52,846 bases of DNA from a virus. Below are positions 1-43,418 of this stretch, in pieces (within the stretch, counting starts at the first letter, position 1; every line of letters starts with the position of its first letter). The notes under the pieces were generated by a model. It ran no database searches. It saw only the letters and a program-made list of their open reading frames with translations, and was not told where the DNA came from. Made by a program: the position numbers and the translations under genes. The DNA lies in the IMG/VR virus record IMGVR_UViG_3300032083_000594, positions 1 through 52,846 of that record, one strand, 5' to 3'.

Positions 1-80
1 AACAGTATGAATACACTGGAGACCATAGCGGCTTCTGTGACGGTATTGAAGATGAATACCTGGAAGAGATCAAGAAGTGA
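1..80 (+). CDS. 3' end of an unidentified CDS (cut by window edge)
   Basis: Frame 3 is open from the window edge and ends at a TGA at 78-80. The visible tail is about 25 residues, acidic, ending EDEYLEEIKK. It is the most gene-like of the three frames and is followed by another possible start that overlaps its stop (GTGA). The product cannot be named from this fragment. Confidence 0.45.
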   Translation, partial: QYEYTGDHSGFCDGIEDEYLEEIKK

Positions 81-256
81 GTAGAAGGATTGAGAGCCCG
101 GTGGTTTTAATTAACCACTGGCGCTGGCTCGAGGCCAACGGCTACAAGAAGGAAGCGGCAAGCTGCAAGCGTCAAGCCTCAAGCTTGACAAGATTAAGAT
201 ATAATGATATAGGAGACTATAGGAGAAAGAAATATGAAAACAAACGAAGCTCTTAA
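77..256 (+). CDS. Possible small ORF reading through the first heptad-repeat array
   Basis: A 59-codon frame starts at a GTG (77) that overlaps the preceding TGA and ends at 254-256, inside the next gene. The middle (NHWRWLEANGYKK) looks protein-like, while the second half is translated from CAAGCNN repeats. There is no ATG and only a weak purine-rich stretch upstream. It overlaps the GP88 start by 23 bp. It could equally be untranslated leader. Confidence 0.22.
   Translation: MSRRIESPVVLINHWRWLEANGYKKEAASCKRQASSLTRLRYNDIGDYRRKKYENKRSS
152..186. repeat. CAAGCNN heptanucleotide array, short copy
   Basis: Five consecutive 7-bp units (152-158, 159-165, 166-172, 173-179, 180-186) share the core CAAGC, the first having G in place of C. 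The same unit makes up the longer array at 967-1080, so the two arrays flank the GP88 gene. The unit was not seen in tandem elsewhere in the window. Confidence 0.85.
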
Positions 257-836
257 AATTATAGGCGGCTCCCTGAGCAAGCCTTCAAAGATGCCTGGCT
301 GGTCGATAGGTTTACCTGCCAAAGAATGCAAGACTGGCGTCAAGCTACAGCAGGTCCCGGGCTCAGTGTGTTATGACTGTTACGCGCTCAAAGGTTGTTA
401 CGTCTTCAAGGTTGTTCAGGATGCACAATACCGAAGACTGGAAGCTATCAAGAGCTCAGACTGGGTCCAGGCAATGGCTCACCTGATCAACAGCAAAAAG
501 CCTGATGTGTTTAGATGGCACGATTCAGGTGATGTACAAGATCTTAATCATCTTAAAAAAATTTATGAAGTCTGTAAATTGACACCTACAAAAAAGCATT
601 GGATGCCTACCCGTGAAGCGTGGATAAAGGACCATCTTCAGGACAAGCCAAACAATTTAGTCATACGATTTAGCGCGCCCATGGTGAACCAGCGGGCGCC
701 TCAGTCGTGGCCTAACAGCTCAGAGGTTGTCGACTCAGGGGCCAGCTGTCCAGCTGCTTCTCAAGACAACGAGTGTCGAGACTGTAGACAATGCTGGGAC
801 GCCACAATTAAAACAGTTTCATATGGTAAACATTAA
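234..836 (+). CDS. GP88-family cysteine-rich phage protein
   Basis: A 200-residue protein resembling the phage 'gene product 88' family. The N-terminus carries SKMPGWSIGLPAKECKTG, followed by a Cys cluster (C32, C46, C49, C55); FRWHDSGD lies at 93-100; a second Cys cluster (C172, C181, C184, C187) lies near the C-terminus. Eight cysteines in two clusters suggest metal or Fe-S binding; the biochemical role of the family is not known to me. The ATG follows AGGAG (221-225) at good spacing. Base composition is clearly richer in G+C than most of the window: the 60 bases at 301-360 contain 33 G/C, whereas 9301-9360 contain 17. Heptad repeats lie on both sides, which suggests a separately acquired segment. 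Confidence 0.7.
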   Translation: MKTNEALKIIGGSLSKPSKMPGWSIGLPAKECKTGVKLQQVPGSVCYDCYALKGCYVFKVVQDAQYRRLEAIKSSDWVQAMAHLINSKKPDVFRWHDSGDVQDLNHLKKIYEVCKLTPTKKHWMPTREAWIKDHLQDKPNNLVIRFSAPMVNQRAPQSWPNSSEVVDSGASCPAASQDNECRDCRQCWDATIKTVSYGKH

Positions 837-837
837 A

Positions 838-1092
838 ATGACTTTAGTTTTTAGACATCCAAAGTATTATAAAGAATTACGCAAGCGTAATAAATCGGAT
901 CAGGCCATTAGCTACGAGCACTCGACGGAGTCTGAAGGCGTGCGCCCTGGTCCGGGCCAACAGCATCAAGCTTCAAGCATCAAGCTTCAAGCGTCAAGCT
1001 CAAAGAGCCTCAAGCTTCAAGCGGCAAGCATCAAGCCCCAAGCAGCAAGCATCAAGCTTAAAGCCACAAGCGGCAAGCTCCATGATACGTGA
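838..1092 (+). CDS. Small protein with repeat-encoded Ala/Ser/Lys/Gln tail
   Basis: An 84-residue frame starts 2 bp after the GP88 stop; an in-frame ATG at 823 is the alternative start. The first half (MTLVFRHPKYYKELRKRNK) looks like ordinary protein. From about residue 40 the sequence becomes a 7-residue repeat (QASSIKL, QAASIKP and variants), because 21 bp of the 7-bp CAAGCNN repeat encode seven residues. It overlaps the opposite-strand nuclease gene over 1000-1092. The function is unknown. It is judged probable, not certain, because the ribosome site is weak. Confidence 0.42.
   Translation: MTLVFRHPKYYKELRKRNKSDQAISYEHSTESEGVRPGPGQQHQASSIKLQASSSKSLKLQAASIKPQAASIKLKATSGKLHDT
967..1080. repeat. 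CAAGCNN heptanucleotide array, long copy
   Basis: The array runs in strict 7-bp register: five units from 967 to 1001, an irregular 9-bp spacer (1002-1010), then ten units to 1080, nearly all beginning CAAGC. Because 7 is not a multiple of 3, each 21 bp gives a 7-residue peptide repeat. The array is open on both strands and forms the C-terminal tails of two convergent genes. Confidence 0.9.
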
Positions 1093-1362
1093 ACCACGGA
1101 AAAGTTTCACGGTACCCGGACCGAGGGCCTCTGCTAAGATAAATGAGTTGTTAGGATGGCGTACATGAAACGCTATTTGGTGTGGTGAGAATCTAATTTT
1201 ATTCCCCTTGCATACCTTTAGTTCGACAGTGAAAAAGTGACCATTAGTATTATACCCCAATAGATCAGGAGTACCGGATAAGCTAAGGTTCTCAAGTCTG
1301 ATCCACGATATTTCAGGTATATATTTTTTAAGTTTTGCATATAATTTTTGTTCTGGTTTCAA
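1000..1362 (-). CDS. VRR-NUC-type PD-(D/E)XK nuclease
   Basis: A 120-residue protein with the small VRR-NUC layout: G30-T-P-D33 followed by E47-L-K49 and Q62, the expected metal-binding and catalytic residues of this nuclease fold. Such phage enzymes act on structured or branched DNA. The only start in frame is TTG (1360-1362); the frame continues upstream into the neighbour with just one TAA between. Residues 95-120 (ending LDACRLKLEAL) are translated from the heptad array and are not part of the nuclease fold. The fold assignment is good; the substrate is unknown. Confidence 0.7.
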   Translation of the reverse strand: MKPEQKLYAKLKKYIPEISWIRLENLSLSGTPDLLGYNTNGHFFTVELKVCKGNKIRFSPHQIAFHVRHPNNSFILAEALGPGTVKLFRGSRIMELAACGFKLDACCLGLDACRLKLEAL

Positions 1363-5026: not shown

Positions 5027-5177
5027 TTAATTTCTTTGCTTTCTCGTTTGCTATTGACTCAATTGTTTTACTTATAGATAATTTTGCATCGGGCAATAAT
5101 ATCTTTGATAACTTATCTAATGTAGCGTATGTTTCTTTTGTTAGAGAAACATTTTTATACTTTGTCATGTCTGTCAT
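5004..5177 (-). CDS. Ribbon-helix-helix-like small regulator
   Basis: A 57-residue protein whose segment KYKNVSLTKETYATLDKLSK, followed by SISKTIESIANE, fits an Arc/MetJ/CopG fold: one beta strand contacting DNA, then two helices. As first gene of the leftward small-gene operon, placed 30 bp from a good promoter (5205-5234), it may autoregulate that operon and the divergent gene. A GGAAA site precedes the ATG at 5177. The assignment rests on pattern and size only. Confidence 0.55.
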   Translation of the reverse strand: MTDMTKYKNVSLTKETYATLDKLSKILLPDAKLSISKTIESIANEKAKKLNGKIKKS

Positions 5178-5204
5178 AACTTGTTTCCTTTCATATTAAT
5201 AACT

Positions 5205-5234
5205 CATATATAGGTGATAATATAGGATTGTCAA
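5205..5234 (-). promoter_or_regulatory. Leftward sigma70-like promoter for the small-gene operon
   Basis: Read leftward, -35 TTGACA (5234-5229), 18 bp, -10 TATATG (5210-5205). The predicted start near 5198 leaves a leader of about 20 nt with a GGAAA site before the regulator gene. The -35 box overlaps the first base of the divergent secreted-protein gene start, so the two genes may be reciprocally controlled. Confidence 0.55.
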
Positions 5235-5446
5235 TGAAATTTTTGTTAAGTTTAATAATTTGTTCAAGTGTTGCAGGTGAATGTATGCCACCTTTTGATT
5301 GGCAAGAAACATTTAGAAGTAAGTATGATTGTATGACTTTTGGTTATGAAGAATCTCTTAATAAAATGAAAGAAATAGGTAGAGAAGATGTTGATAAATA
5401 TGGCATGTATATTAAGTTTTATTGCACACCTATAGAGATGATTTGA
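5234..5446 (+). CDS. Small secreted Cys-containing protein
   Basis: About 70 residues: MKFLLSLIICSSVAGEC is a typical signal peptide, followed by a soluble domain (CMPPFDWQETF, then GYEESLNKMKEIGREDVDKY) with several cysteines that could form disulfides in the periplasm. The ATG at 5234 is preferred over the TTG at 5228 because an AGGA lies 7 bases upstream. It is the only rightward gene in this neighbourhood. No function recognised. Confidence 0.6.
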   Translation: MKFLLSLIICSSVAGECMPPFDWQETFRSKYDCMTFGYEESLNKMKEIGREDVDKYGMYIKFYCTPIEMI

Positions 5447-42834: not shown

Positions 42835-43418
42835 TATACTTGTCCTCCTTTTAAATATTTCATTCTAGTCATATCTATCATTCCACCACCCATTTTTTTA
42901 GTTTGATTTCTAAGTTTTTCATTTTTAAATTTTAAATCTGGTCTTGGACCTTTATTCATTTTTAAATTTTCATTTTTAAATTTTTTACTAATATTTTTTG
43001 CTGTTCCAACAGCTTGTTTAACTCCTGTTTTAACAAATTCTTTTATTTTATCAGGAACACGTTTATCTTTATAACGTCCTTGAAATTTAGTTCCAAGTTT
43101 ATAATCTTTAGATTCAGAACTAATATTTTTTGCTGTTCCAACAGCTTGTTTAACTCCTGTTTTAACAAATTCTTTTATTTTATCAGGAACACTTTTATCT
43201 TTATAACGTCCTTGAAATTTAGTTCCAAGTCTATAATTTTCAGATCCAGAGCTGTATCCTATTCGTCCACCCATAGCTTTTTTATTACGATTTTTTTTAC
43301 CACCGGGTGTAATTTTACCTGAACATACTCCAGATGCATACATATTAGCATATGCTGATGGATACACTTTGAATTTTCGTTTCGCTGCTGCTTTTCCTTT
43401 TGGACACAATTTTGCCAT
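42834..43418 (-). CDS. Basic protein with internal 44-residue duplication and GGRIGY motif
   Basis: 194 residues. The N-terminus has CPKGKAAAKRKFKVYPSAYA then NMYASGVCSGKI, a Cys-bounded basic segment. GGRIGY lies at 50-55. Residues 62-105 and 106-149 are near-identical repeats (YRLGTKFQGRYKDK / YKLGTKFQGRYKDK onward). The C-terminal Lys/Asn-rich end finishes MGGGMIDMTRMKYLKGGQV. Probably a DNA-associated virion protein; role unknown. Confidence 0.6.
   Translation of the reverse strand: MAKLCPKGKAAAKRKFKVYPSAYANMYASGVCSGKITPGGKKNRNKKAMGGRIGYSSGSENYRLGTKFQGRYKDKSVPDKIKEFVKTGVKQAVGTAKNISSESKDYKLGTKFQGRYKDKRVPDKIKEFVKTGVKQAVGTAKNISKKFKNENLKMNKGPRPDLKFKNEKLRNQTKKMGGGMIDMTRMKYLKGGQV
42972..43235 (-). 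repeat. 132-bp tandem duplication inside the 194-aa gene
   Basis: Two copies of a 132-bp unit (43104-43235 and 42972-43103) differ by only a few bases over most of their length, keeping the reading frame (44 codons). The near identity at third codon positions indicates a recent duplication or ongoing homogenisation. Confidence 0.85.

Follow-up and report, generated by a model that had tools for sequence, protein, structure and literature searches.

The locus described here raises the question of what tandem repeats of only seven base pairs are doing on both sides of a single phage gene. The window that we analysed, a virus record of 52,846 bp, is kin to the cultured SAR11 phage HTVC027P (TerS 58% and GP88 52% identical), SAR11 being the commonest bacteria of the ocean. 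The preliminary description had reported two arrays of one unit, CAAGCNN, around one gene, and both are indeed present, with four exact units plus a degenerate one on the left and 14 plus one on the right. The left or short array (152..186, plus strand) opens with the first of its five units, a degenerate GAAGC at 152, and the other four, with exact CAAGC cores, start at 159, 166, 173 and 180. The right or long array (967..1080, plus strand) has a first block of five exact units at 967-995, then one step of 16 nt, and a second block of seven units at 1011-1053 followed by a degenerate AAAGC at 1060 and two further units at 1067 and 1074. A search of the window with CAAGCNNCAAGC gave 14 matches in the two arrays and one stray match (25212, minus strand), and dinucleotide shuffles of the window lead to an expectation of 0.05 tandem pairs by chance. 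Both in the window and in HTVC027P the tandem arrays are restricted to this locus and lie on one strand throughout. Far from it, at 42987-43284, the window also carries a 132-bp tandem duplication (two copies, 96%) within a leftward gene. Our search of the literature found no account of these repeats in phages, and they are not mentioned in the accessible parts of the papers on HTVC027P.

The arrays belong to a layout that is widely shared. In the window, the short array is followed by the GP88 gene (Gene product 88; 234..836, plus strand, 200 aa, G+C 47%), by the small ORF P36 (838..1092, plus strand), which has an F[KR]HPK[FY]Y N-terminus, is the equivalent of HTVC027P gp32 and owes its C-terminal part to read-through of the array, and by the long array, placed where the 3' ends of rightward and leftward genes converge. 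The leftward gene encodes a VRR/PD-(D/E)XK nuclease (1000..1362, minus strand), and the terminase small subunit gene TerS (PF03592; 1859..2383, plus strand) is the conserved right-hand neighbour. A small ORF with a GTG start (77..256, plus strand) crosses the short array rightwards; its coding status is uncertain, and ORFs resembling it are found at the equivalent site in relatives (MSR(R/K)PG..HWRWLQ.QG.SYK..QAASCK). HTVC027P and clearly more than 100 marine viral contigs share the order array, GP88, long array, VRR nuclease and TerS. In fact, a scan for four consecutive units returned at least 120 viral stretches, nearly all of which show this order with the VRR gene leftward, and further short arrays often lie upstream of it. 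The HTVC027P locus (gp29-gp34) reads array, gp34, array, GP88 (gp33), gp32, long array, VRR, gp30 and TerS, its three arrays standing at the corresponding places, and this common layout makes the window a member of the HTVC027P phage group. In the HTVC027P record the VRR gene over the long array (L323:4766-5134) is unannotated, and only a shorter gp31 is given at 5143-5367.

The preliminary description had tied its interpretation to the presence of the arrays in relatives with the same gene order and to their association with GP88. Among close relatives the arrays are constant, since an array lies on the 3' side of VRR in 60/60 TerS-defined loci with enough sequence, whereas 023Pt-type phages lack the 7-mers. 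The association with GP88 is not strict either, as in about 17 relatives of the 023Pt type GP88, VRR and TerS occur without 7-mer arrays, and repeats of another kind take their place. The gene order is unchanged in 023Pt_psg01 and close contigs, where GGGTGGGCCC/GAGC repeats occupy the same places instead of the 7-mers. The contigs L343, L377 and L395 show CAAGC with a mostly 8-bp period, and CAAGCTTGACA is retained at the end of the arrays of L377 and L343. It would appear from this that position and topology outlast sequence, a behaviour that would suit sites whose partner protein itself changes. Three copies of the GGGNGGGTGGGCCC type in 023Pt_psg01 (L324:3118, 3875, 4688) correspond to the three places of the CAAGC arrays of HTVC027P. 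In the 023Pt-type contigs L341, L343, L377 and L339 the GP88 promoter region is preceded by an inverted element, GATCCCTGGTCC ... GGACCTGGGATC.

The short arrays are promoter-abutting elements, a property that the preliminary description had overlooked. A promoter adjoins the end of the short array in 145/226 unique arrays, compared with 4/135 long arrays and 190/3000 random positions (6%). In 104 arrays the -35 hexamer TTGACA begins at the base right after the last CAAGC, and this exact CAAGC|TTGACA junction, which occupies 180-190 in the window, is found in about 100 relatives; about a third of the short arrays have no recognisable -35. The promoter predicted from sequence in the window (185..213, plus strand) consists of TTGACA at 185-190, opened by the TT of the last array unit, a spacer of 17 nt and TATAGG at 208-213, ahead of the GP88 start at 234. 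It is absent from the promoter prediction listing because its -10 is weak, and TTGACA-N17-TATAGG recurs behind arrays in relatives. We found 209 sites with an ORF behind an array and TTGACA, 103 of them with GP88 and 106 with members of 34 other small ORF families. The start codon typically lies about 50 nt past TTGACA (mid-distribution 48-56 nt; 35 ORF families).

The published transcriptome of HTVC027P bears on these promoters. This phage has an array and promoter ahead of gp34 and again ahead of gp33, and RNA-seq during infection placed gp33 and gp34 together in 'extra cluster 2', with a peak at 6-9 hpi (PMC12753301). The genes behind array-promoters, gp33 (GP88) and gp34, match exactly that private temporal class, and gp32, directly downstream of gp33, is not named in it (PMC12753301). 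As the link between arrays and promoters was drawn from sequence ahead of the RNA-seq data, the two lines of evidence are independent.

The repeats themselves are conserved in an uneven manner. Across 565 unique phage arrays each position of the CAAGC core is 95-98% conserved and both N are nearly uniform in composition. The unit-to-unit step is by far most often 7 (3966 times), followed by 14 (257 times), and the 16-nt step of the window (9+7, with a degenerate unit at +9) was seen 117 times inside arrays, which means that the +2 register shift is itself recurrent. Between relatives whose flanks are 12% diverged, the NN and spacers are 28% diverged and the cores 2.7%, a figure that is biased downwards because the cores anchor the alignment. 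Judged by these comparisons, the core is under purifying selection at the DNA level. The folding of the array as RNA is somewhat more favourable than that of shuffled sequences (z -2.3 for the plus strand and -3.6 for the minus strand), as expected from the self-similarity of CAAGC and GCTTG. No known RNA family was detected at the arrays at E<=1, and a search for a terminator at the array found none. In one subgroup (contigs L345, L346 and L364) palindromes of the TGCGACAAWTTGTCGCA type lie between CAAGC units and near the promoter.

The long array is coding DNA as well, at least in one direction. According to the preliminary description, it forms the C-terminus of a protein on both strands, and this holds for the leftward gene and not for the rightward one. 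The leftward gene is, by PHROG and by its predicted fold, a PD-(D/E)XK/VRR-type nuclease, although Pfam gave no hit for it. Its fold neighbours in Foldseek are Hjc, RecU and VRR_NUC 4qbn (one entry from the 'phages' collection was left out of this fold prediction), and E24, D33, E47 and K49 are invariant. Residues ~92-119 (about 1003-1089) are array-encoded, and the predicted structure gives the tail two helices, 90-102 and 110-119, on a PD-(D/E)XK fold (block pLDDT 92-96). Among 200 unique long arrays, the median codon to which the frame stays open is 27 for VRR, as against about 5 for the other two frames of the minus strand, and the tail consensus IxELVACGLKLxACCLGLxACxLxL is conserved among relatives. 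In the rightward direction an open frame is trivial, because CAA GCN NCA AGC NNC AAG CNN is stop-free in every frame. We considered the P36 'repeat protein' as a selected product and rejected it in favour of incidental translation, as P36 takes a random register relative to VRR (22/20/29) and ends at scattered stops. As a small ORF immediately 3' of GP88 (838-960 in the window), P36 is nevertheless found conserved in relatives, with the motif F[KR]HPK[FY]YxELR.

Several other explanations of the arrays have to be weighed against these data. One is a neutral slippage satellite of the kind seen in Pseudomonas, Alcanivorax and other bacteria, whose CAAGCNN repeats share the pentamer core and the 7-bp period and are numerous; array length also varies between phage relatives, being unequal in 90% of pairs. 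We regard this explanation as highly improbable. Adjacent phage units share their NN in 5.9% of cases, where 7.5% is expected, against 74.1% in the bacterial satellites, and since neighbouring units are thus no more alike than chance, slippage is ruled out as the origin of the phage arrays, and with it the generating mechanism that had been suspected behind the 7-bp period. Furthermore, array position is fixed across phages and the arrays are co-oriented at the locus, whereas the bacterial units are homogeneous and often form inverted pairs 30-130 bp apart; among the 60 bacterial arrays listed, none is followed by TTGACA. As for the common origin proposed with the GRTCCRT 'runs' of the window, these come down to four sites of 14 nt, none with more than one mismatch, and we saw no relation to the CAAGCNN arrays. 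In Alcanivorax sp. S6407 we counted 190+241 three-unit matches and none for a control pattern, and the inverted heptad pairs of this strain and of Pseudomonas mediterranea resemble hairpin or MITE-type elements. It could also be argued that the repeats are primarily protein-coding, as the tail of the nuclease and/or of P36, and that the short arrays are relics. The VRR tail, which is conserved, stop-free and predicted to fold, agrees with this, as does the identity of NN at lag 3, which is raised to 15% in the phage arrays. As sole cause, coding is contradicted by the codons of the tail, where Ala is GCT in 159/175 cases (47/171 in the body) and Leu is CTT or TTG in 323/359 (321/582 in the body); synonymous codons frozen in this way to the choice of the array indicate two selections on the same bases. 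With a random P36 register, and with short arrays that lie outside the VRR gene and at promoters, we find this explanation very improbable too. A function as packaging (pac) site or as replication-origin iterons, recognised by TerS or by an initiator, seems to us quite improbable. The tandem repeats lie about 0.8-0.9 kb from terS, TerS forms oligomeric rings, and 9-17 units could suit such a ring. Nevertheless, a search for arrays in HTVC023P, of the same phage group, found none although this phage has TerS, so that the element is dispensable and not group-wide; highly divergent TerS proteins coexist with the same repeat type (e.g., L337-L342 vs L324); cumulative GC skew runs on monotonically across this region, with no switch, which speaks weakly against an origin; and the promoter-linked arrays would be left unexplained.

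A further explanation starts from GP88 itself and takes the arrays as a cassette-exchange platform, that is, as short homology or recognition sites where phages that infect one cell together would swap genes. The adjacent nuclease, with a fold near that of RecU, Hjc and VRR and thus like that of Holliday-junction resolvases, may assist in this. GP88 matches PF17338 at 2.6e-25 (90 bits, against a curated cut-off of 24.4); its predicted model has a pLDDT of 92.9, its cysteines 32, 46, 49, 172, 181, 184 and 187 are invariant, and the fold has no match in the PDB below E=0.17, so that it is possibly, as far as the model goes, an uncharacterised metalloprotein fold. The flanked segment is G+C-rich, as had been stated, with 0.468 for GP88 and 0.351 for the whole window, and in 178 relatives GP88 (0.470) exceeds the downstream DNA (0.353) in every case. 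Pairwise identities of GP88 correlate poorly with those of its right-hand neighbours (0.20 with VRR and 0.30 with TerS, vs 0.65 between VRR and TerS); GP88 is less than 75% identical in 23/134 pairs whose VRR and TerS are at least 88% identical, and 16/194 complete array pairs enclose genes other than GP88. From this decoupling and these other genes it follows that the region exchanges genes, and the 34 other families found in the same kind of slot fit such a platform. The bordered segment is therefore exchangeable, as the preliminary description had supposed, but its breakpoints do not demonstrably fall in the arrays. Of 44 swapped pairs, 27 have the border of their conserved block within the long array, a proportion close to that expected from the length of the array, which makes up roughly half of the interval where this border can fall; both block edges lie in arrays in 0/2203 genome pairs, and the enrichment of block ends near arrays is mild (0.42 vs 0.22, n=60). 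Moreover, pure homology accounts neither for free NN beside a constant core nor for the exact -35 register. We thus consider a platform of this kind rather unlikely. It is unlikely, too, that the arrays and the resolvase-like nuclease make up an integron-like platform in lytic ocean phages, in which promoter-bearing accessory cassettes would each be bounded by CAAGC arrays serving as operators and recombination zones, and the nuclease, array-encoded at its own C-terminus, would act on recombination intermediates there.

On balance, we favour the explanation that the CAAGCNN arrays probably constitute a multi-site operator, made of tandem head-to-tail sites for a putative DNA-binding protein. 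The position of the arrays, their register, the selection on the core and the diversity of cassettes behind the same module can all be read in the sequences compared here. A 5-bp core every 7 bp would suit a sequence-specific binder, of phage or host origin. The short arrays (3-7 units), which directly precede, in register, the -35 of promoters that look sigma70-type, would be the regulatory sites, and these promoters would drive a gp34-like gene, GP88 and members of 33 other families, all of them small accessory genes. As a single regulon, these genes could then be either switched on or repressed by the bound protein, and the island between TerL and TerS would swap such genes, each with an array-promoter in front of it. 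No promoter accompanies the long array (9-17 units), which lies where GP88/P36 and VRR meet with their 3' ends, and so the role of this array is guesswork; it would most likely be a high-occupancy partner site for looping, titration or a transcriptional roadblock, and its right two-thirds seem to have been co-opted as coding sequence for the last two helices of the nuclease. A Pfam scan of the 48 window ORFs gave no RHH or HTH regulator family and no ParA family, nor did a binder emerge among the 25 families listed out of 57 that matched in PHROG; a divergent or a host protein may still be the binder.

Among known systems, the closest working analogue of such an operator is the heptad arrays of omega (ParB-pSM), the ribbon-helix-helix protein of plasmid pSM19035. 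Its operator/parS sites consist of contiguous, non-palindromic 7-bp units, WATCACW, in which a 5-bp core stands between loosely defined outer positions; each site has 7-10 units, a replicon has several sites, and the sites overlap promoters (PMC9499535). The phage arrays are likewise contiguous 7-bp units with a conserved core and abut promoters. However, the phage core is CAAGC and not WATCACW, and the units are all head-to-tail whereas those of omega are mixed in orientation, so that the phage locus would work like an omega/parS site but is not a member of that class. The phage NN are almost fully free, and the Pfam scan of the 48 window ORFs found no omega-like protein. The host replicon also differs, a lytic phage and not a plasmid, and the phage has the extra long array at a convergent junction, which is also protein-coding. 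Heptanucleotide repeats of four or five units (GGGACCG, MTYCTGA) are also described for Geobacter metallireducens in the accessible part of that report (PMC2700814). There they are, like the phage arrays, tandem heptamers, proposed to be global regulator sites or RNA elements, but their sequence is different, they are dispersed over the chromosome and, in that part of the report, no promoter register is given (PMC2700814).

As a cis element that recurs with a private regulon and its accessory cassettes, the arrays would give a handle on the timing of expression in these phages. Phages of the HTVC027P type have been reported to be globally abundant, and most of their genes are without known function. 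CAAGCNN arrays before TTGACA could serve as a simple tag for finding accessory genes in metagenomes. Finally, the long array would be a clean example of double selection on the same DNA, for the spacing of operator-like cores on the one hand and for the terminal helices of a nuclease on the other.
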